A stretch of DNA of 50,378 nt from Acidimicrobiaceae bacterium (lineage in GTDB: Bacteria > Actinomycetota > Acidimicrobiia > Acidimicrobiales > Palsa-688). The stretch spans positions 1 through 50,378 of the forward strand of contig PMHH01000113.1 of the NCBI GenBank assembly GCA_003156595.1. Direction: 5' to 3'. The position numbers were made by a program, and so were the translations under genes. The notes beneath the pieces were generated by a model. That model was given only the letters and a program-made list of their open reading frames with translations, was not told the origin of the DNA and searched no databases. The first letter of the stretch is position 1; each line of letters starts with the position of its first letter. This document shows positions 9,021 through 35,685 of the stretch, piece by piece.

Positions 9021-10441
9021 GCTCCCGCCGGCTGACTGATGGGCAACCTGACCTGGAAGCGGGTATCCCCTGGCACCGACTCCACCCGGATGTCGCCGTG
9101 GTGCCGGCGAACCACGATGCGGTAGCTGATGTCGAGTCCGAGCCCGGTGCCCCGTCCAACGTCCTTGGTAGTGAAGAAGGGTTCGAAAATGCGCCGTTGC
9201 AGCTCAGCGGGAATCCCCGGGCCGGTGTCGCCGATCTCGACTACCGCGCAGTCCGCCTCCCGGAACGTGCGGATAGTCAGCGTTCCCTTGCCCTCCATGG
9301 CGTCAATGGCGTTGTGGATGATGTTCGTCCACACCTGGTTGAGCTCGCCCTCCCGGGCGCAGATGGTGGGCAGGGTGCGATCGAAGTCGCGTACCACCTT
9401 TACGCCTTCTTTGAGCTTGTGGGAGAAGATGACCAGAGTGCTCTCCAGCCCGGCGTGAATATCGATGTCGTCGAGCGGTGCTTTGTCCAGGTGGCTGTAA
9501 TCCTTCATGGCCCCGACAAGTTCGGAGATGCGGCCGGCCGAGTTGCGGATCTCGTTGACCAAGCTCTCGATGTCCAATCCAAGCGATATCCAGCGGACGG
9601 CCAAGGCCGCGCCTGGGCCGGCGGCCGCTTGCACTCTCTCCAGCCACGTATCGTCGAGGCCGGCGGCGGCCAGGGCCGGAGCGAGCTGCCACGGGTCGTC
9701 CACACCGGCGTCCTGCAAGCTCTTCGCCAAGGCGTCCTCGAGATCGCCGGCTTCCAGGGTCGAGAGGGACGGAGCAGTCCGGGCCCGCCCGATCGCTTCG
9801 TTGAGCAGGTCGAGCAACTTCGAGAGGTCGTCCCTTCCGATCATCGGGGCCAGGTCGACCATGGCCAGGCGGGCTTCCCGAAGCCGGTCGCCGACGGCCT
9901 CCGCAGCTCGGACCTCGGCGGCGGCCGGGTTGTTGAGTTCGTGGGCCAAGCCGGCGGAAAGGGAACCAAGGGCAATCAGTTTTTCCCGTTGTCCCACCAG
10001 GGCTTCCGAGTTGGTCATCCCCAGGAACAACCCGTCCAGGAGGTGCACCGCCATCGGAAACCAGGTGTTCAGCAGCTGAGCGAAGTCCTCGGCCCGCAAC
10101 TGGAACAGGCGCGCATGCGTCACTGTCCGCAAAGTGTTGGCATAGGTCTGATCGCCCGACGAGCTGACAAACGCTCTGGTCGCCCCGCTGTAGGCGCCCG
10201 CCTGGCTGGCCGTGGTCCTGACCACGTCGGCGCCGTCCAGACGCTTCACCAACTGGATCTCTCCGTCCAGGAGGACGCAGAACCAGTGGGCCGGCTGTCC
10301 CTCCACGAAGACGTTCACGCCCGCTTCGTAGGTCTCGACGGTGCCATGCCCTACCAACCAGTCCAGCTGTTCGTCGCTCAGACTCTCGAAAAGGAAACAG
10401 GCCCCCAGCTCCGCCCTGAGGTCCGTCGACGCCGAGCTCAC
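9017..10441 (-). CDS. Sensor histidine kinase with N-terminal cyclic-nucleotide-binding domain
   Basis: CNMP-type region ETYEAGVNVFVEGQPAHWFCVLLDGEIQLVKR; H-box LSAGLAHELNNPAAAE; N-box NIIHNAIDAMEGKG; G-boxes IGDTGPGIP and GRGTGLGLDIS. GTG start overlaps the stop of the upstream gene (GTGA). Confidence 0.87.
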   Translation of the reverse strand: MSSASTDLRAELGACFLFESLSDEQLDWLVGHGTVETYEAGVNVFVEGQPAHWFCVLLDGEIQLVKRLDGADVVRTTASQAGAYSGATRAFVSSSGDQTYANTLRTVTHARLFQLRAEDFAQLLNTWFPMAVHLLDGLFLGMTNSEALVGQREKLIALGSLSAGLAHELNNPAAAEVRAAEAVGDRLREARLAMVDLAPMIGRDDLSKLLDLLNEAIGRARTAPSLSTLEAGDLEDALAKSLQDAGVDDPWQLAPALAAAGLDDTWLERVQAAAGPGAALAVRWISLGLDIESLVNEIRNSAGRISELVGAMKDYSHLDKAPLDDIDIHAGLESTLVIFSHKLKEGVKVVRDFDRTLPTICAREGELNQVWTNIIHNAIDAMEGKGTLTIRTFREADCAVVEIGDTGPGIPAELQRRIFEPFFTTKDVGRGTGLGLDISYRIVVRRHHGDIRVESVPGDTRFQVRLPISQPAGA

Positions 10442-12102
10442 AGCAACTCCAGGTAACGGTGCACGAGGGTCACCGCCATCGCCCCTTCTCCGACCGCGGA
10501 CGCCACCCGTTTGACGGATTGGCCGCGCACGTCCCCCGCCGCGAACACCCCTGGCGCGCTCGTTTCCAGGAAGTAGGGCTGTCGTTCGAGGGGCCAGTCG
10601 GGCGGCAGCTGCCCGTTGGAAAGCAGGTCGGGACCGGTCAGTACAAACCCGTTCTCGTCCCGTAGCACCTCTTTGCCCAGCCAGTCCGTGCAGGGGGCGG
10701 CCCCGATGAAGATAAACAGCCATGACGCGTCGACTTCCTCGACCGTGCCGGCAGCTCGGTCGGCCAGGGACAACCGCTCCAGGTGGTCACTGCCGCTGGC
10801 GCCCACCACCTCGGTGCGAGTGCGCACGTGCACGTTGGGAAGGGCTGCGATCTGCTGGATCAGGTAGTGAGACATCGACTCTTGCAGGCCGTCACCCCGC
10901 ACCATGATGGTGACGTTGCGGGCGAAGCGGGAGAAGAAGACGGCCGCCTGCCCAGCCGAGTTGGCGCCGCCAATGATGTACACGTCTTCGTCCCGGCACG
11001 TCTGCGCCTCGGTGGTTGCCGCGCCGTAGTAGACGCCCCGGCCGGTGAATTCCTCCACTCCGGGCGCCGGCAGTCGACGGTAGGCGACGCCGGTAGTCAG
11101 GACCACCGCGTGAGCCGACAGCTGGGTGCCGTCAGCCAGCCGCACCACCCGCGCCGATCCACAGAGCTCGAGACTCGACACCTCTGACACCAGCAGCATC
11201 TCCGTCCCGAAGCGACGGGCCTGGGTCGCCGCTCGGCGGGCCAGATCACCACCTTTGATGCCAGAGGGAAAGCCCAGGTAGTTCTCGATAAACGAGCTCT
11301 GGCCGGCCTGGCCACCGACCGCCTCTCTCTCGACCAGCACTGTGCGCAAACCCTCGGAGGCCCCGTACACCGCGGCACCCAGTCCGGCCGGACCACCTCC
11401 GATGACGATGAGATCGTAGAACGGTAGGGAGGGCGTCGACGACAGGCCGAACGCCCTGGCCACGTCGACGATCGTCGGCTCGACCAGGGTCTCGCCCGAG
11501 TCGGTCAGAACCACTGGCAGGTGATCGGCGCTGCCGCCACTGGCGGACAAGAGCCGGGCCGCCTCCGGGTCGTGCTCGATCTCCAGCCATTTGAACGGCA
11601 CCTGGTTGCGGGTCAGAAAGTCCTTGACCTCATGGGACTGGGCCGACCAACGGTGGCCAATCACCTTGGTGCGCTCGTCTGACGTGAGACGGTCCTGCAT
11701 CTTCCAGTCCTCGAGAAGGTCGTCAAGGACAGGGAACAGTTTCTCCTGGGGCGGGTCCCAGGGTTTGAGCAGGTAGTAGTGCACATCCGCCTTGTTGATG
11801 GCGGCGATTGCTGCATCGCTGTCCGCGTAGGCGGTCAGGAGCACCCGGCGGGCTTTCGGATAGAGCTGGCGGGCTTGCTCGAGAAACTCGACACCGGTCA
11901 TCGCCGGCATGCGATGGTCCGCCAGCAGCAACCCGACCTTTTCATCTCGGAGCTTCAGCTCCTTGAGGGCATCCAGGGCCGCCTGGCCAGACTCGGCCCG
12001 GCGGATCCGGTAGTCCTCGGCGTATTGTTGGCGTAGGTCCCGGGCCAGGGCACGGGACACTTCCGGATCGTCGTCGACCGTAAGGAGTATCGGAGGCGCC
12101 AT
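10438..12102 (-). CDS. Response regulator - glutaredoxin-like - thioredoxin reductase-like FAD oxidoreductase fusion
   Basis: MAPPILLTVDDDPEVSRALARDL...LLLADHRMPAMTG...YYLLKPWD (REC); middle RWSAQSHEVKDFL...; then DLIVIGGGPAGLGAAVYGASEGLRTVLVE...GVFAAGDVRGQSVKRVASAVGEGAMAV (TrxR fold). Confidence 0.9.
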   Translation of the reverse strand: MAPPILLTVDDDPEVSRALARDLRQQYAEDYRIRRAESGQAALDALKELKLRDEKVGLLLADHRMPAMTGVEFLEQARQLYPKARRVLLTAYADSDAAIAAINKADVHYYLLKPWDPPQEKLFPVLDDLLEDWKMQDRLTSDERTKVIGHRWSAQSHEVKDFLTRNQVPFKWLEIEHDPEAARLLSASGGSADHLPVVLTDSGETLVEPTIVDVARAFGLSSTPSLPFYDLIVIGGGPAGLGAAVYGASEGLRTVLVEREAVGGQAGQSSFIENYLGFPSGIKGGDLARRAATQARRFGTEMLLVSEVSSLELCGSARVVRLADGTQLSAHAVVLTTGVAYRRLPAPGVEEFTGRGVYYGAATTEAQTCRDEDVYIIGGANSAGQAAVFFSRFARNVTIMVRGDGLQESMSHYLIQQIAALPNVHVRTRTEVVGASGSDHLERLSLADRAAGTVEEVDASWLFIFIGAAPCTDWLGKEVLRDENGFVLTGPDLLSNGQLPPDWPLERQPYFLETSAPGVFAAGDVRGQSVKRVASAVGEGAMAVTLVHRYLELL

Positions 12103-12249
12103 CCGGCCCATTCTGGCACCGTTTGCCCGCTTATCCCTCAACTCGGAGGCTCCAGACGTCGATAGCTACTCCAGTCGATGAGGAGGATGAAGCATGAACG
12201 ATGACAGCGCTTTCGTGGAGGCTGTCTTCGGTTTGCGCCAGGGCCCCGG

Positions 12250-24243: not shown

Positions 24244-24839
24244 GACCCCGTCCGGACAGACCGTGCTGGTGACCGAGGCCGAACTGCCCAGCCCGATACT
24301 GCAGATCTGGTACCACCGTGTGTCAATCCAACTCGGCATCGGCCCCGACCCGACGGTGGCCAGAGCCATCCTGGACTCGATCCGCTACTCCACACTGCAC
24401 ACCGAAGAGCGCGACCACAGCAACGACGAAGACCGACGCGGCCACCCAATTGGAGACCAACTTGCAAATCCCCGCCACCTGGACTCATACCCCTTACGGC
24501 TGACCAAACTGTCACGACCGGCGCCATCGACGGACACCCCGCGTGCACCGGGCGACGTTCGCCTCCACCTCCTCGACGAGCCGAGCGGGCAGCTTCGACC
24601 CTGCGGCGGTGACGGCCGGATCGGTTGCAGCGGCGACCAGGGCGGGGACGACAGCGTCGGCGAGCGTCTCGATCCTGGCCGGGGTGGCGTCGGGGTCGAG
24701 ATCGGCCCATTCGGCGACATCGCCCAGTCGGCCCGACCATGCCTATCTCATAGTGCTCACCGATTCGCATCGCCATCCGCGGGTACCGATTGACCCCGTC
24801 CGGACAGACCGTGCTGGAGACCAACGCCGAACTGCCCAG
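24244..24839. repeat. Direct repeat pair: 24244-24291 and 24792-24839
   Basis: gaccccgtccggacagaccgtgctgg is identical in both; followed by t/agacc...ccgaactgcccag with few mismatches. Confidence 0.8.
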
Positions 24840-24906
24840 CTCGAGCGTCATGAGTCGCCCACGGAAGTCAACGGTGGATCGCGTCCGGTTAGGGTGGGTC
24901 TTCGGA

Positions 24907-25270
24907 TTAGCCGGGGACGGTGGAGACGTTTTCGGGCGTCGAGAGTCGTCTGATCTCTGCCGCGAGCGCATCGAGGGTTTGTCGCGAGTGGCTGGCGATG
25001 TCGGTGTTGAGGGCGGCCGCTCCGCCAAGATTACCGGCGGCTGCGAGTTCCTCGAGAGAGCGTGCAGTGGCGGCGAGGAGGGTGGCTCCCATATTGGCGC
25101 TGCTGCCGGCGATGCTATGAGCGGTTTTTTTTTGCTGCGGGCAGGTCTTGATGCAGGAGAGCATCGTCTAGCTGGGAGCGGAGCGTGTGGAGGTCGTCGT
25201 CGTATAAAGCCACGAGCTCCCTAAGGAGTTCGAGTCCGCCGACTTGAAACAGCTCGATCTAATCGCCTGA
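24907..25270 (-). pseudogene. Histidine phosphotransfer (Hpt) domain gene interrupted at an A9/T9 tract
   Basis: Frame 1: ELFQVGGLELLRELVALYDDDLHTLRSQLDDALLHQDLPAAKK; frame 2: AHSIAGSSANMGATLLAATARSLEELAAAGNL...; joined if the A9 tract were A8. A second frame break is likely near 25260. Confidence 0.75.
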
Positions 25271-25589
25271 TCGACGGCAGGTTCGGTGCTACGGGTGGGA
25301 TGGTCATCGTCTCGCGGCGGATTCCTGCGGGGGACGGCGGGGTCCTCTCTGTCAATCGTTCGACGGGCCGCGACGAACATGGCATTGATGTGTTCTGCCG
25401 CGGTCTTGCGTGTCCCATCACGCTGAACTCGGCCACCCTCCTGTAGCCGCCCCGGCTCGGGCGACGCGGCGACCAATCCTGCGGAAACGACATCGGAGGC
25501 CGGCGCTGGTCCCACAAGAATAGCGCCACGGACCGCGGCCGCAAAAGGGGTCGGGAATGGGACCGCACTCTTGCATTGAAATGATGCGG

Positions 25590-25601
25590 CGTAACGTTAC
25601 G
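25590..25601. promoter_or_regulatory. Perfect 12-bp palindrome CGTAACGTTACG
   Basis: Self-complementary, 170 bp upstream of the hybrid kinase start. Confidence 0.45.
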
Positions 25602-25661
25602 AAACCGCGGGAAGCGGGATCCCCGTTATGCTGTGGTCTGGTTCGGATTTGAGCCACCGCG

Positions 25662-25704
25662 CCCCCGCCTACGGGGGAGGATGGGGGGTTCCCGATGGGA
25701 ACCC
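25662..25704 (+). promoter_or_regulatory. Two adjacent hairpins in the leader of the hybrid kinase
   Basis: CCCCCG-CCTA-CGGGGG (25662-25677) and GGGTTCCC-GAT-GGGAACCC (25686-25704), both perfect stems. Confidence 0.6.
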
Positions 25705-25770
25705 GGCTTCTTAAGATTATCGGTTGGCGAGGCGGGCCGTGATGGGAGCTACCTCCGACGGAATGGATCG

Positions 25771-27333
25771 ATGACGGTTGAACCGGAGCCGAGGAACGAG
25801 CCCCGATCCGCCTGGCACGCCTTGGCGGCCTCTTTGGCCGCGATCATCGACTCTTCCGAAGACGCCATCATTGGCAAGGACCTCGACGGCACCATCACGA
25901 GTTGGAACCTCGGTGCCGAGCGCCTATACGGATACACAGCGACCGAGATCGTCGGGCGGAACATCTCGGTTATCACTCCGAGCGACCGCCTCGATGAACT
26001 CGCGGACGTGCTCAGGCGGATTGAACGCGGAGAGCGTATTGAGCACCACGACACTCAGCGCCTCCGCAAGAACGGGAGCGTGCTCGATATCTCGGTGACC
26101 ATCTCGCCGGTCCGCGACTCGACAGGGACCGTCATCGGAGCATCTGCGATCGGCCGAGACATCACCGATAGATTGTCTTGGGAACGCGAGCGAAAAGCAA
26201 TCGACGTCCGCCTTCGACAATCGGAGCGGTTGGAGAGTTTGGGACAACTCGCGGGCGGCATCGCCCATGACTTCAACAATCTGCTCGCGGTCATTTTGAA
26301 CTCTACGACCTTCATCAGGGATGAACTCGATGACAAGGAGGCAGCTAGCGCCGACCTCGACCAGATTTCTCTAGCAGCCCAGCGCGCCGGTACCCTTACG
26401 CGGCAGCTGCTCTCCTTTTCTCGTCGAGAGGTTCTGAAGCCGCAAATTGTCAACCTGAACGACCTTGTGACCGGCCTCGAAGAGATGCTCCGACGGACGA
26501 TAGGCGAACATATCGAGCTCGTCACCGCTCCCGCACATGACCTGTGTTCGGTCGAAGTCGATCCTGGTCAGCTTGAACAGGTGCTCGTGAATCTCACGGT
26601 GAACGCCCGCGACGCCATGCCCGATGGTGGCCTGCTGACCATCGACACTGACAACATCGACATCGACGCAGGGTACGCCGAAATGCATTCCGGATTGGCA
26701 CCAGGTCGGTATGTGCGCCTCAGGATCAGCGATACCGGAGTGGGCATGGAGCCATCTGTGCTAGAGCACATCTTCGAGCCGTTCTTCACCACTAAACCCC
26801 AAGGAGAGGGCACCGGCCTCGGGCTGGCAACGGTGTTCGGGATCGTTGGACAGGCGGCCGGAGAGATCCAGCTTTACTCAGAACCGGGAATAGGAACAAC
26901 CTGTCGGGTACTTCTGCCCGCTACGGACCGGACGCCGCCGGATGTTCGACCTGCCGGCATGGCGCAGGATCTTCGTGGCACCGAGACGGTCCTCGTCGTC
27001 GAGGACGAGGACGCGCTACGTGAAGTAACGCGGAGGATCCTGGCCAAGAACGGCTACCACGTGCTCACCAGCGCGAACGGTCCCGAAGCTCTCGCCCTCG
27101 TGAAAGACCACGAGGTATCGATCGATCTCCTCCTGACCGACGTAATCATGCCCCAAATGTACGGGAAAGAACTCGCCGCCCGACTGCAAACTCTCCGGCC
27201 CGGTCTTGCCGTTCTGTACATGTCGGGCTACGCACAGCCGGTGCTCGGCCCAACCTTAGGGCACGACGCAATGCTGTTGGAGAAACCATTCTCCGAAAAT
27301 CTCCTGCTAACGAAGATTCGTGCTGCTCTTTGA
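25771..27333 (+). CDS. Hybrid sensor histidine kinase: PAS - HisKA - HATPase - REC
   Basis: PAS SLAAIIDSSEDAIIGKDLDGTITSWN; H-box LAGGIAHDFNNLL; NARDAMPDGG; ISDTGVGMEP; EGTGLGLATVFGI; REC VLVVEDEDALREV...LLLTDVIMPQMYG...LEKPF. Confidence 0.93.
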   Translation: MTVEPEPRNEPRSAWHALAASLAAIIDSSEDAIIGKDLDGTITSWNLGAERLYGYTATEIVGRNISVITPSDRLDELADVLRRIERGERIEHHDTQRLRKNGSVLDISVTISPVRDSTGTVIGASAIGRDITDRLSWERERKAIDVRLRQSERLESLGQLAGGIAHDFNNLLAVILNSTTFIRDELDDKEAASADLDQISLAAQRAGTLTRQLLSFSRREVLKPQIVNLNDLVTGLEEMLRRTIGEHIELVTAPAHDLCSVEVDPGQLEQVLVNLTVNARDAMPDGGLLTIDTDNIDIDAGYAEMHSGLAPGRYVRLRISDTGVGMEPSVLEHIFEPFFTTKPQGEGTGLGLATVFGIVGQAAGEIQLYSEPGIGTTCRVLLPATDRTPPDVRPAGMAQDLRGTETVLVVEDEDALREVTRRILAKNGYHVLTSANGPEALALVKDHEVSIDLLLTDVIMPQMYGKELAARLQTLRPGLAVLYMSGYAQPVLGPTLGHDAMLLEKPFSENLLLTKIRAAL

Positions 27334-27428
27334 CGCGTCCAGAGGCGAACACTGGCGGCAGTCCCCTGATCGAAATGGCGGACGCTCGCGGCGCCGGCTG
27401 GCGGGGTCAGCGGCGGGGTCGGTCATCC

Positions 27429-29105
27429 TCAGTTCCCGGCGGCTGTCTCGATGAGGCCGTCGCGGGTCGCGGCGGCGACAGCCTCGAGTTTCGAGTGGAC
27501 GTCGAGTCGGGCCATGAGGCTCTGGACGTCGCGGTGGACCTGGTTGGCTCGAAGCCCAAGGTGTTCGGCGATCTGGTGGTTGTCGAGACCCTTGGACGAG
27601 AGGGAGAGTATCTCCTGCTCGGTCTCGGTGAGGAAGATCTCAAGTGTCCTGTGGTCGGCCCGGGGCAGCATCGGAACGAGACGTTGCAGTTCGGCGGGAG
27701 CCATCACGATCTCTCCGGCGTGGGCCAGGCGGATGGCGCCCACCAACTCGACGGAGGCCCGAGTCTTGTCGAGATAGCCTGAGCAGCCGGCGTCGATGGC
27801 GTCCAGAAGCACTTCGTCGCTGCCATAGCCGGTGACCAGCAGGACCCGCACATCGGGGGCGATCTGGCGCAGCACTCGCGCCGTAGTGACACCGTCACTG
27901 TCAGGAAGCCGGTGGTCCAAGAGGATGACATTCGGGACAATGACGCGGGTCACATCTACCGCCGCCTTGGCGGTCTCGACGACTGCGGCTACGAGCATGT
28001 CGTCTTCCCGTTCGATCAGGCGGGCCAGGCCCTCGGCTACCATTCTGTGATCGTCGACGATCATCACCGTGATCGGGCTGTCCTTGTCCGTCAGATGGCC
28101 CTGGACCGCGCTCACTCGATCGCGGCCCGCCGCCTTGCCGGCGTATAGAGCCGCATCGGCGGCCCGGACCAGAGCGCCGGGGTCCACGGTCAGGCCCGAC
28201 GCAAAACCTATGGTCACCGTCATCCGCATCCGCCCATCGGGTCCGTCGACCACGGACTCTTTCACCCGAGCGCGAATTCGCTCTGCCAGTTCGAAGGCTC
28301 CTCGTTCGTCGGTATCGGGAGCTACCAGGAGGAACTCGTCCCCGCCGAGCCGGCCGATCACGTCCTCGATGCGGACCGTGTCGTGGAGCAGATCGGCCAA
28401 CCACCGCAAAGCGGTGTCACCAGCGGCGTGGCCGAAGTGGTCGTTGATCTCCTTGAAACGGTCGACGTCAATGACCATGACTGTGAGCGTGCTGTGCCAG
28501 CGGCGGGCCCGGCCGGCGACGCGGACCAACTCCCGGTAGACGTAAGCCCGATTCGGGAGCCCGGTGAGCCAGTCGATGGACCCGGACTGCTCGAGTTGCG
28601 CATTGCGACGCAGCAGATCGGCCCGCTCGGCCTCTGCGAACTGCGCCTGGTGGATTCGCATCAGAAGCTCGACCGGTTCGAAAGGCCTCAGTGCGAAGTT
28701 GGTCGCCCCATGGTGGAGTGCCTCGGTGATGACCGAGGGGCTGTCGTCGCTCTTGAACAACAACACCGTCGTTACGGGCGCGCCCGCCTGCTCTCGGAGA
28801 CCTTTGAGGACCTCGAGCCCGGTCGGATCGACGAGGTGGTAATCGAGTAGCACGACGTCGGCGTCGAGCTTCTGCGCGAGCAGCAGGCCGGTATTGCCGT
28901 CAGGCGCGACAGCGACCCGATACCCCGCCGTCGTGAGAATCTGGGCGAGGAGGTCCCGCGACGAGTAGTCGGCCTCGATCACCAACATGAGGGCGGGCTG
29001 ACGCCGGCGCCCTGCCCTCGCGTTCGGACCGGGTACTTGCGCCGTCGAGCCGTTCGCCTTCAAAGAATGTCCAGACTCTCCGCCGGACATGCACCCACCT
29101 CCCAC
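27429..29105 (-). CDS. REC - GGDEF - REC - LuxR-type HTH multi-output response regulator
   Basis: Degenerate REC (MLVIEADYSSRD...LLDYHLVDPTG...FALRPFEP); intact RLGGDEFLLVAPD with RIED 5 residues upstream; second REC IVDDHRMVAEGLARLIE...LLDHRLPDSDG...YLDKT; HTH FLTETEQEILSLSSKGLDNHQIAEHLGLRANQVHRDVQSLMARLDV. Confidence 0.92.
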   Translation of the reverse strand: MGGGCMSGGESGHSLKANGSTAQVPGPNARAGRRRQPALMLVIEADYSSRDLLAQILTTAGYRVAVAPDGNTGLLLAQKLDADVVLLDYHLVDPTGLEVLKGLREQAGAPVTTVLLFKSDDSPSVITEALHHGATNFALRPFEPVELLMRIHQAQFAEAERADLLRRNAQLEQSGSIDWLTGLPNRAYVYRELVRVAGRARRWHSTLTVMVIDVDRFKEINDHFGHAAGDTALRWLADLLHDTVRIEDVIGRLGGDEFLLVAPDTDERGAFELAERIRARVKESVVDGPDGRMRMTVTIGFASGLTVDPGALVRAADAALYAGKAAGRDRVSAVQGHLTDKDSPITVMIVDDHRMVAEGLARLIEREDDMLVAAVVETAKAAVDVTRVIVPNVILLDHRLPDSDGVTTARVLRQIAPDVRVLLVTGYGSDEVLLDAIDAGCSGYLDKTRASVELVGAIRLAHAGEIVMAPAELQRLVPMLPRADHRTLEIFLTETEQEILSLSSKGLDNHQIAEHLGLRANQVHRDVQSLMARLDVHSKLEAVAAATRDGLIETAAGN

Positions 29106-29698
29106 TAGCGCTCATGATACGGCTCATTCGACGTTTGCCGTCATCGCCCGGCTACCTGCCGCCTGACGCTAACTCAAAAGCGGAGCGGTAGCGTTCTTGT
29201 AACGCCTCGGTGCTGCGCTCGGCGGCTTAAAGGCGGTCACGTCCCAGGCCACGACCCCGCTCTGCCGGGCAACGGGACGTTGCAATCTTGTCCCAAAGAC
29301 TTCCTTCTTTGTAACACATAGATCGGTCATCGTGTTGTGATCTTTCCTGACGGTAGTTCGAAATCTGTGGTGGTCGATAGGAGTCACGCTGGGATGTGGT
29401 GGTGTGCGTTTCCGGATGAAGGTGTGACGGTTAAAGCCAGCAGTTGTAGGCGCAATTCCTCTAGGCCGTGCTCTCCGGTACGTCCCGAGCGAGCGGGATC
29501 AGGCGCTACCGTCGCTCGACAATATGTCTCGTCCAGAATATGTAGACAGCCTACGGTGTCCACGTTCTCATGAAACGACAAAGCGGCCTATTTGCAGGTA
29601 TATTGGAGCTCAGAGCCGGAAGAGTACGGGACCGACGAGCTGCGAGGATTCCCCCCGCAGATGGGTCGACTTCCGAGTAGGCCGGAGATAGCCTGGTA

Positions 29699-31477
29699 GT
29701 GATGGCCTCATTCGCCCGAGATGGGGCGCTTCACGGTACCGCCCCCGCAGACGCCGACGCGATCCAACGGGCTCGGGCGGTGATCTGGATCAACCTGGGG
29801 TGCGTCGCAGTGTGGATCATCATCCAGATCGCAGCCGGCTTGGGTTTCCACAACGCTCGACCGCTCGGTGTCGCGGGCGCCGGGCTCGGGATGGCGATCT
29901 GCTGGTCGGCCGCGCTGCGCCAGATCTCCACGGGTCGTATGGCACGCGGCGTCGCGACCTACACCATCTCGGGCCTGCTCCTGCTGCTTGCCATGGGTAT
30001 GTTCGTTCCCGAGCTCTCGTTGCTGTTCACGTTGGCAACCTTCATCTTCCTCGCCTTCGGGCTTTCCTACATGAGCGGCACGGCTTCGCTCAGGATCGTC
30101 GCACTGACGCTCGTCGTCGCGTTGATCCTGCTGGTCACGTCGGTCGCCCTGAAGTGGACAAGCGGTGTGCCTGTTGGGACGTTCAGGTGGATCAACCTGA
30201 TCGGCATGCTGATGGCTCTTTCCATCGACGCGACAATGTTCATTATGCTGCGCCGCACGCTAGAGGCCCGCGCTGATCGTCTCGTGGCAGCGGAGCGGGA
30301 GGCCGTCCAGTTGCAGCAGCGAATCGCCCAGCAACAGCGGCTCGAGAGCGTCGGGCTGCTCGCCGGGGGGATCGCGCATGACTTCAACAACCTCCTAGGC
30401 GTCATCATGGGCTACGCCGCATTTGTCTCCGCAGGGGCGGCGGACGCGGCCACGGTGCGGGCCGATGTCGAGAAGATCCAGGCCGCGGCCGAGCGCGCCG
30501 CTCGGCTGACCAAGCAGCTGTTGATCTTCGCTCGACGCGAGACGGTCGAGTCTGACCTGTTGGATATGAACGTCATCGTCACCGAGGTCCATGACCTCTT
30601 GTCGCGCACGATCGGCGAGCACATCGAGTTCAGGGTCGAACTGCTCGAGAACCTCCCCGCGGTCTGGGCCGACCGCGGCCAGCTCGAGCAGGTGCTCCTC
30701 AACCTCGCGGTCAACGCTCGCGACGCGATGCCCGATGGCGGGGCGTTGACCGTTGCGACGCGCGTGGCAGATTTCCGCGAGGGCGACGCAGGGCTTCATA
30801 GCGATGTGAGCTCGGGCCGCTATGTGGAGCTGGCTGTCGGCGATACGGGGACCGGGATGAGCGCGGAGGTCGCCCAGCGTATCTTCGAGCCGTTCTTCAC
30901 GACCAAACCCAGGGGTCAGGGCACGGGCCTGGGCCTGGCGACCGTGTACGGCATCGTCACTGGCGCCGACGGCGGCATGACCGTCGAGTCGGAGGAGGGC
31001 CGCGGTACGACCTTCCACGTTTACCTTCCCGCCCGAGAGCCGGCGACGTCCCTCGACGCGATTGTGGCGGCACCACGGACCGATGGGCAGGGAGAGACGA
31101 TCCTAGTCGTCGAAGACGAGCTCGATGTGCTCGAGCTGACTTCCAGGATCCTCCGCCAGGGCGGCTACGAGGTACTCGAGGCGTGCACCTTCGAGCGTGC
31201 CCTACACCTCGCCGCATCGACCGACTTCCAGCTGCTCCTCACCGACTCGATCATGCCGCACATGTCGGGCCGCGTCCTCGCGGCGCGCGTCGCAGAGTTG
31301 AGACCGGGCACGGCCGTCCTCTACATGTCCGGTTACAGCGAGGGTGTGCTCAACCCCGAGCGGGCCCTTCCCGACGGGGTCGCGCTGATCCAGAAGCCGT
31401 TCACGGCTCGGACCTTGCTCGAGTACGTCCGCAACGCTTTGGGGACGGGACCCGGCGCTGCGGGAGCCGCGGCCTAA
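29699..31477 (+). CDS. Membrane hybrid sensor histidine kinase with C-terminal REC
   Basis: About 6 hydrophobic segments then LAGGIAHDFNNLLGVIMGYAAFV...NARDAMPDGGALT...GDTGTGMSAE...GQGTGLGLATVYGI...ILVVEDELDVLEL...LLLTDSIMPHMSG...IQKPFT. Confidence 0.93.
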   Translation: MMASFARDGALHGTAPADADAIQRARAVIWINLGCVAVWIIIQIAAGLGFHNARPLGVAGAGLGMAICWSAALRQISTGRMARGVATYTISGLLLLLAMGMFVPELSLLFTLATFIFLAFGLSYMSGTASLRIVALTLVVALILLVTSVALKWTSGVPVGTFRWINLIGMLMALSIDATMFIMLRRTLEARADRLVAAEREAVQLQQRIAQQQRLESVGLLAGGIAHDFNNLLGVIMGYAAFVSAGAADAATVRADVEKIQAAAERAARLTKQLLIFARRETVESDLLDMNVIVTEVHDLLSRTIGEHIEFRVELLENLPAVWADRGQLEQVLLNLAVNARDAMPDGGALTVATRVADFREGDAGLHSDVSSGRYVELAVGDTGTGMSAEVAQRIFEPFFTTKPRGQGTGLGLATVYGIVTGADGGMTVESEEGRGTTFHVYLPAREPATSLDAIVAAPRTDGQGETILVVEDELDVLELTSRILRQGGYEVLEACTFERALHLAASTDFQLLLTDSIMPHMSGRVLAARVAELRPGTAVLYMSGYSEGVLNPERALPDGVALIQKPFTARTLLEYVRNALGTGPGAAGAAA

Positions 31478-33721: not shown

Positions 33722-34846
33722 CTAGGAGCCGGCGAGGGTTTTTCCGGACGGGACGACCAAATTGCCACTGGGGTCTACGTGCGCCGATCCGGGGTGGGCG
33801 ATGGGGATCAGCGGTCCCGGGCAGGCGTAGCTGGTTCCCGGTCCACACAGACCATCGGTCAGGTAGGACTTGCTCACGATCGACTTCGGCCAGGCTCCCT
33901 GGTGGACTCCGAAATATTGAGCCGGCAGGTTGTAGGTGATCATGAACAGCAGGTTCAGGGCGCCGATGAGGCCCAACAGCCGGACGCCTGTCCGCTTCCA
34001 ACCGGTGACACGGAGTTTCTCCAGTCCCCGCTCGGCGAACGACTCGCCTTTGTCGTTGCGGAAGTAGTGGAGGCAGGTCCAGCTGGCCCAAGTGGTGCCG
34101 AAGAGGATGGCCTCATACAGCGGGAACTGAAAGTAGCTCCCGGAAAAAATGGTGACCCCGTGTATGGAACCGGTGTAGACATATATCCCCATCCAGTTGA
34201 AGCACGTCTCCAGGACCGCGTCGAAGATCCAGAATCCCACGAACAGGGTGACGACGGTGCCGAGAGTGCCCATCTGTGGGTGGCGAGCCTTGAAGCGCCG
34301 CAGTAGCCACGTGGCCAGGAGCACCATCCCGAGGCAGCAGTAGACGTAGATCGGCCAGACCCAGACGAGTGGCTCGGGCATGCGATTGGCGTTGGGTAAC
34401 AGGTGCCCGGGGACGTTCCCGAGCCATGACCCGAAGTTGATCATCCCGGCGTTGTAGGTAAACCACGCGCCGCTGGCGTCACCCAACGGGTCCTGCCAGT
34501 ACAAGGTCAGGAAAGCAATGACCAGCAAGCCGTCGGTGGTTATATGCCCTTCCCTCCGCCACGGTCGGACGAGAAAGAACCAGACGAACCCGGCGAACAC
34601 AAACAGACCGCCGATCTCCCACACCAGGAACTCGACGTGCATCCAATGGGGCAGAGGATTGGTGCCCACATGGACCGTCTTGGCCTTACCCGAGGTGATC
34701 CACGCCGTCCACAGATAGGCGAAGCACAACAACGACACCACCCCGAGACAAGCCCAGATCTTCACCGCTGGCGTCTGCCGCTCCGTGACGACTGGCTCGC
34801 GCGACGTGATGCCTTCGGAAGCCGCCGGTTGGATGGTTGTCGTCAT
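33722..34846 (-). CDS. Spirocyclase AveC-family-like integral membrane protein
   Basis: Polytopic; HWMHVEFLVWEIGGLFVFAGFVWFF...DPLGDASGAWFTYNAGMINFGSWLGNVPGHLLPNANRMPEPLVWVWPIYVY...ETCFNWMGIYVYTG; recalled family resemblance, not searched. Confidence 0.7.
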   Translation of the reverse strand: MTTTIQPAASEGITSREPVVTERQTPAVKIWACLGVVSLLCFAYLWTAWITSGKAKTVHVGTNPLPHWMHVEFLVWEIGGLFVFAGFVWFFLVRPWRREGHITTDGLLVIAFLTLYWQDPLGDASGAWFTYNAGMINFGSWLGNVPGHLLPNANRMPEPLVWVWPIYVYCCLGMVLLATWLLRRFKARHPQMGTLGTVVTLFVGFWIFDAVLETCFNWMGIYVYTGSIHGVTIFSGSYFQFPLYEAILFGTTWASWTCLHYFRNDKGESFAERGLEKLRVTGWKRTGVRLLGLIGALNLLFMITYNLPAQYFGVHQGAWPKSIVSKSYLTDGLCGPGTSYACPGPLIPIAHPGSAHVDPSGNLVVPSGKTLAGS

Positions 34847-35505
34847 CGTGTGCCTGCTCCTTTATCATCGAGGATTCCCTCGAGCACTATCCGAGCCAAC
34901 TGGGCTTCTGCTTGCAGGGCATCCATGCCCACCTGGTCCAGGAAGTCCTGATTGGTCACCTGGTAGGCGAGGACCTCCAGAGCCTTAGCGACCAAGCGCG
35001 GTTCGACAGGCCGGAAACGCCCCTCGCGAACGCCGGCGGCGACCACCTCTGCCAGGAACTCGGTACCGATAGCCAAGTGGTCAGCGAAGAGCCGTTTGGC
35101 TGGTCCGTAGGCCTCCACGTCCCGGATGAAAGCGTCCCACGGCGGCCTGAACTCCCGGGCACCTTCCCGCATGAAGATCTCGATCCGATCTGCTGGGTCG
35201 GCCGTGTCGACCATCAACCGGCGGGCTCGGTCACCCACCCGGGCCCACATCCGGTTGAGGACCAGAAGGAAAAGCTCCTCCTTGGTGGGAGCAATCCGGT
35301 AAAGAGTTCGCAAGGAACACGACAGCTCAGCAGCTAGTTCGCCCATGGTCACGGAGCGAAAACCGTCACGCAGGAAGATCGTCTCCAGCGACTGCAAGAT
35401 CTCCACCTGGCGCGGCGCCAGATCACGTGGCAGCCCCATCAGTGAGCCCACCCGTTCGACCGACCGGGTGGCGGCGCTCTCTATCCGGGCCAGGGAGTCC
35501 GACAT
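34843..35505 (-). CDS. TetR family transcriptional regulator
   Basis: APRQVEILQSLETIFLRDGFRSVTMGELAAELSCSLRTLYRIAPTKEELFLLVL; stop overlaps the AveC-like ATG (ATGA). Confidence 0.88.
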   Translation of the reverse strand: MSDSLARIESAATRSVERVGSLMGLPRDLAPRQVEILQSLETIFLRDGFRSVTMGELAAELSCSLRTLYRIAPTKEELFLLVLNRMWARVGDRARRLMVDTADPADRIEIFMREGAREFRPPWDAFIRDVEAYGPAKRLFADHLAIGTEFLAEVVAAGVREGRFRPVEPRLVAKALEVLAYQVTNQDFLDQVGMDALQAEAQLARIVLEGILDDKGAGTR

Positions 35506-35534
35506 CGGTAATATCCAATCACTTATGTTACCGA
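35505..35534. promoter_or_regulatory. Candidate TetR operator TCGGTAA-N16-TTACCGA
   Basis: 7-bp perfect inverted arms abutting the TetR start codon. Confidence 0.55.
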
Positions 35535-35685
35535 AAGTCCAGAGGGACGTCAGTGGCTCCAAGCGAGTCCTGCCCCTGTCCTCCTTGTGTGAATGCGATT
35601 CGCGGTTTAGGTTGTCTGGCATGGGATCTCTGGACAATTCGGAGGGGTTCGCTCGCAGATACGTCTTGGCGGTGGGGTTCGGGGG

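Follow-up and report, generated by a model that had tools for sequence, protein, structure and literature searches.

A REC-GGDEF-REC-LuxR response regulator between two hybrid histidine kinases, beside a putative frame-broken Hpt copy, in a draft Acidimicrobiaceae genome

The window analyzed here is the whole stretch of DNA under study: bases 1 to 50,378 of contig PMHH01000113.1, which is 77,270 bases long, from the draft genome of an Acidimicrobiaceae bacterium (4.12 Mb in 185 contigs, 76.6% complete). A gene for a 558-aa response regulator is flanked by genes for two hybrid histidine kinases, HK1 and HK2, in the orientation HK1 (+), regulator (-), HK2 (+). The regulator gene converges with that of HK1 at a spacing of 95 bases and diverges from that of HK2 at a spacing of about 0.6 kb. 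An initial annotation of the locus had described these three genes together with a stand-alone Hpt gene; the two hybrid kinases and the REC-GGDEF-REC-LuxR protein are present as described, but the Hpt gene is not. The features are as follows.

24888..25374, minus strand: Hpt remnant, consisting of linker and Hpt domain, in which the frame shifts near 25250 and again near the run of nine A
25125..25133, minus strand: run of nine A (T on the plus strand) at an Hpt frame break, read from the sequence; absent at this point from the intact paralogue
25633..27333, plus strand: HK1, a PAS-HisKA(HDFNN)-HATPase-REC hybrid kinase (Pfam and motifs), with a possible ATG start at 25771
27429..29105, minus strand: dual-output response regulator REC1-GGDEF-REC2-LuxR, 558 aa (Pfam; open, stop-free frame of 560 codons)
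27474..27632, minus strand: LuxR/GerE helix-turn-helix (Pfam, 37.3 bits)
27732..28067, minus strand: REC2, canonical, with the full residue set (D351 D352, D397, T425, and K447)
28116..28577, minus strand: GGDEF domain (Pfam, 128.6 bits; aligned with PleD structures 1w25/2wb4)
28653..28991, minus strand: REC1, degenerate when aligned to CheY and to ten REC-GGDEF relatives
29106..29698, no strand: intergenic region shared by the divergent regulator and HK2 genes, without an Rfam match
29699..31477, plus strand: HK2, with a hydrophobic (membrane) N terminus followed by HisKA(HDFNN)-HATPase-REC (Pfam)

A search around these genes for riboswitches (e.g., of the c-di-GMP class) found none. Elsewhere in the window, 10438-12141 (minus strand) encodes a fusion of a response-regulator receiver with a pyridine nucleotide-disulphide oxidoreductase, and 33722-34846 (minus strand) encodes an AveC-like (spirocyclase-like) protein near a TetR-type regulator (34843-35637).

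The H-box of CckA is HDFNN. HK1 and HK2, which are 51% identical across kinase and REC, both carry this H-box along with an intact N-box, GTGLGL motif, acceptor Asp, and KPF motif, and Pfam places a REC at the C terminus of each, as the initial annotation had stated. The intact H-box and the C-terminal REC with its acceptor Asp, which are prerequisites of a relay, are thus present in both proteins, and their motifs suggest that they are CckA-like hybrid kinases. The end of beta4 in each REC reads LYMSGY, a variant of the FxSGY-type (FATGUY) motif in which the first aromatic residue is Y, not F. The motif is known from RECs of the relay type, the REC of CckA among them, and the authors who described it regard its significance as unresolved (PMC9981736). 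Its occurrence here agrees with the earlier view of the kinase RECs as relay type.

The regulator contains REC, GGDEF, REC, and GerE domains in a single frame, as proposed, but its first receiver is degenerate. REC1 keeps the acceptor Asp (D88), with E44-A45 replacing the acidic pair, K118 in place of Ser/Thr, and R140 in place of Lys. An acidic-pocket Asp, the Thr of the switch, and the conserved Lys have thus been lost from this receiver. In the ten REC-GGDEF relatives, which come from the order, these positions carry the usual residues in every case where they fall within the aligned segment. REC1 does not provide the phosphorylatable receiver that precedes GGDEF in PleD and WspR. The GGDEF motif (residues 254-258), the motifs for catalysis and for substrate and metal binding, and the RxxD I-site (RIED, 245-248) are intact, so the domain is predicted to be an active enzyme. 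REC2 has the intact site of a terminal-regulator REC and is followed by the GerE helix-turn-helix, the arrangement of NarL/FixJ (REC-LuxR) regulators. Given the degeneracy of REC1, only REC2 looks phosphorylatable. In the AlphaFold model, REC1 retains a (beta-alpha)5 fold and is connected to GGDEF by a long helix (144-173). REC1, REC2, and the helix-turn-helix are modeled confidently and GGDEF poorly, probably owing to HD-GYP rows aligned onto GGDEF, and we therefore draw no argument about domain arrangement from the model.

What had been read as a stand-alone Hpt-like gene is not a single gene. One frame holds only the tail of the domain, Pfam Hpt positions 31-83 (29-30.6 bits); the first helix is read in a second frame as far as the run of nine A, the linker ahead of it is again in the first frame, and no intact Hpt module is left at the locus. 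By far the closest relative of the remnant is the Hpt domain of a hybrid kinase of the same genome (C56; 68% amino acid and 76% nucleotide identity), which is intact, 1091 aa long, and organized as PAS-HisKA-HATPase-REC-Hpt-REC. The nucleotide alignment of window positions 25374-24888 with L088:7645-8126 scores 274 (shuffles, ≤47.5); it takes in the linker and the Hpt but not the REC on either side. From this comparison, the remnant appears to be a frame-broken copy, of about 0.49 kb, of the C56 linker and Hpt domain. We also considered and rejected the duplication of a larger part of the C56 hybrid around the Hpt, as homology ends within the linker on one side and with the Hpt on the other. 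A single frameshift, possibly programmed on the run of nine A, was rejected as the main reading, as a second break outside that homopolymer is needed. Codon differences between the Hpt tail and its paralogue fall mostly at third positions (28, compared to 12 at the first position and 8 at the second). This implies constraint on the copy or its partner over much of the time since they diverged, and the frame breaks seem to postdate the duplication. The two breaks occur within about 130 bases, one of them outside any homopolymer, whereas none of the assembly's 57 REC matches contains an in-frame stop; general indel error is thus not easily blamed. Beside the remnant, a 53-nt direct repeat (window 24244-24296 and 24792-24844, 92% identical) lies in frames without a family match and would be consistent with a rearranged stretch.

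The kinase-regulator linkage recurs in related genomes. With the kinase and REC core of HK1 as the query against 397 genomes of the order, 30 loci were fetched, one of which is the window itself. A REC-LuxR-type regulator directly adjoins the kinase at 13 of the other 29. Seven of these regulators are plain REC-LuxR proteins (six co-directional with the kinase, with 8-41 nt between the matched parts, and one convergent like HK1), and six are REC-HD-GYP-REC-LuxR proteins encoded directly downstream (Pfam on representative proteins). No Hpt motif was detected beside the kinase at any of the 29 loci in flanks of about 1.5 kb, a motif search that a very divergent Hpt could escape. The synteny expected of the locus is therefore found for the kinase-plus-regulator pair and not for the four-gene set. 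The proposal of one circuit gains from the recurrent link between this kinase family and REC-LuxR regulators, but not with Hpt as a working member, and the four-part relay as first written does not hold at this locus.

The nearest relative of HK2 (tree support, 99/92) adjoins a REC-HD-GYP-REC-LuxR gene in genome G299. The closest relatives of HK1 (55-60%) mostly have no REC-LuxR-type regulator directly adjacent, and in G173 about 2.5 kb separate a near relative of HK1 from the closest relative of the regulator's REC-LuxR half. Elsewhere in the genome under study (C65; L090, 3682-7244), a second CckA-like kinase gene abuts a REC-HD-GYP-REC-LuxR gene, whose product has the same layout with the opposite type of c-di-GMP enzyme (HD-GYP, degrading).

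In a tree of REC-LuxR segments, the six HD-GYP fusions all group in a single clade (100/99), and the window protein stands apart with L099, L101, and L107 (87/84), the innermost pairing being weak. We infer from these separate positions that the GGDEF fusion arose independently of the HD-GYP fusion. The HD-GYP clade is spread over several families; the GGDEF fusion was found once. Searches for a full-length REC-GGDEF-REC-LuxR protein in 397 order and 397 phylum genomes (partly overlapping sets, together nearly 800) gave half-length matches only; a pattern scan of 84,980 species, insensitive to distant relatives, likewise gave half-length matches only. As the fusion is known from this one assembly, it is possible that an assembly join lies behind it. 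No account of the exact architectures was found in the open-licence literature. The L107 locus (G263:C39) encodes a PAS-repeat protein ending in REC-LuxR, the REC of which has neither the canonical acidic pair nor the acceptor Asp (VDPD, VNLD); this protein is possibly a phosphorylation-independent sensor-regulator.

We consider it somewhat probable that the dual-output regulator is driven directly by CckA-like hybrid kinases and that the neighboring Hpt is uninvolved. Upon a signal, a kinase would autophosphorylate on the histidine of its HDFNN motif and pass the phosphate directly to REC2, with the kinase's own C-terminal REC holding or draining phosphate. Phosphorylation of REC2 would alter DNA binding by the LuxR-type domain and probably also the oligomeric state, and hence the activity, of GGDEF. 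REC1 would no longer be a phosphate switch but a dimerizing or sensing pseudo-receiver joined to GGDEF by the long helix; pseudo-receivers can bind c-di-GMP, as in ShkA (PMC7010744). The Hpt remnant would be a decaying duplicate from the C56 hybrid kinase, with no part in the circuit. The partner is most likely HK2, the divergent neighbor, and possibly HK1, the convergent one. Direct transfer to REC2 is our leading reading because kinases and REC-LuxR genes are linked in relatives without Hpt and because the alpha1 segment of REC2, HRMVAEGLARLI, is similar to HRMFAESLARLL of kinase-linked regulators. The initial annotation had assumed that kinases ending in a REC need a separate Hpt, but this is not obligatory, since the DNA-binding regulator DigR receives its phosphate directly from the hybrid kinase SgmT, which can do without its own REC (PMC3509222), and the hybrid kinase CrbS works with the LuxR-type CrbR (PMC5715377).

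Against direct transfer, the FxSGY-like motif in both kinase RECs would fit an Hpt- or ChpT-like partner, as would be found in a true phosphorelay that runs in trans from the RECs of HK1 and HK2, through a stand-alone Hpt (C172) or the Hpt domain of the C56 kinase, to REC2. Such an Hpt is present: the genome encodes an intact protein of 132 aa (L089:4663-5061, 48.8 bits). Its gene, however, lies between those of an OmpR-type regulator and a PAS-HisKA-HATPase-REC hybrid kinase (L089, 3810-7325), a likely dedicated set that is an intact version of the relay set first sought at the window locus. A further point in favor of a relay in trans is that a sister REC-LuxR gene in genome G339 follows, on the same strand, a gene for an HK-REC-Hpt hybrid, the sole case of this kind. 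It was found from the REC-LuxR side; among the loci from 278 genomes searched for Hpt-bearing hybrids adjoining REC-LuxR, there was none. Kinase/REC-LuxR pairs in related genomes have no adjoining Hpt, and no ChpT-type phosphotransferase (PF10090) was found above the Pfam cut-off in an assembly that is 76.6% complete. Taken with this evidence on its two sides, a relay in trans seems unlikely, although it is the alternative that we take most seriously. Separately, the G339 locus (L184, G339:C65, 5401-10327) is a same-strand array of two hybrid kinases (one of them REC-Hpt) followed by REC-LuxR and REC-REC genes.

It is also conceivable that the genes belong to no common circuit and became neighbors by chance or duplication, with HK1 especially being an orphan that has another partner. 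The lack of a directly adjacent REC-LuxR gene beside most of the nearest HK1 relatives, which also counts against direct transfer from HK1, the mixed gene orientations (+,-,+), and the failure to find the four-gene synteny all speak for this. The adjoining partner at 13 of 29 related kinase loci, the regulator beside the sister of HK2, and the proximity of the two relatives in G173 argue the other way, and we regard the lack of any common circuit as quite improbable. That the neighboring Hpt is functional after all, its frame breaks being sequencing or assembly errors, is very improbable, as the past constraint on its codons and the location of one break at the run of nine A are outweighed by the second, non-homopolymer break, the stop-free REC matches, and the lack of a conserved adjoining Hpt in relatives.

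With direct signaling from kinase to REC2 as the preferred reading, the locus can be set beside known systems. It resembles CckA-ChpT-CtrA of Caulobacter (PMC9981736) in the HDFNN H-box, the ED acidic pair, and the C-terminal REC with an FxSGY-type motif, but differs in having no ChpT above cut-off, in an output that combines REC-LuxR with a c-di-GMP enzyme rather than an OmpR-type regulator, and in that the kinase gene often directly adjoins the regulator gene in genomes related to this one. The REC-long helix-GGDEF part, with its intact GGDEF motif and I-site, is like PleD, WspR, and DgcR, and its best solved structural relatives are PleD (1w25/2wb4) and a REC-GGDEF protein (6zxm); in contrast to these, REC1 has lost its pocket Asp, switch Thr, and Lys, and a second REC and a LuxR DNA-binding domain follow GGDEF. 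The pairing of a hybrid kinase with a LuxR-family response regulator recalls CrbS/CrbR, whereas here an enzyme domain (GGDEF, or HD-GYP in the C65 paralogue) and an extra REC are fused in front. SgmT-DigR of Myxococcus shares the C-terminal-REC hybrid kinase, the DNA-binding regulator, and the freedom from Hpt, but there GGDEF is on the kinase, as a c-di-GMP receptor, and the regulator is of the HTH_Xre type.

The novelty of the locus, as judged from sequence, would be one of architecture within known two-component designs. Because the genomic partners of these hybrid kinases are DNA-binding regulators and not Hpt proteins, the locus bears on the purpose of the FxSGY motif (PMC9981736). We tentatively suggest, as a possibility short of our leading reading, that a REC-X-REC-LuxR chassis served by CckA-like kinases has independently received opposite c-di-GMP enzymes, that one genome holds both, and that each is controlled by one phosphorylation event free of Hpt, even though the kinase RECs are of the relay type. 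If this is true, gene expression and the level of a second messenger would both be set by a single phosphorylation event, and one genome would carry c-di-GMP-making and c-di-GMP-breaking versions of one kinase/regulator module.
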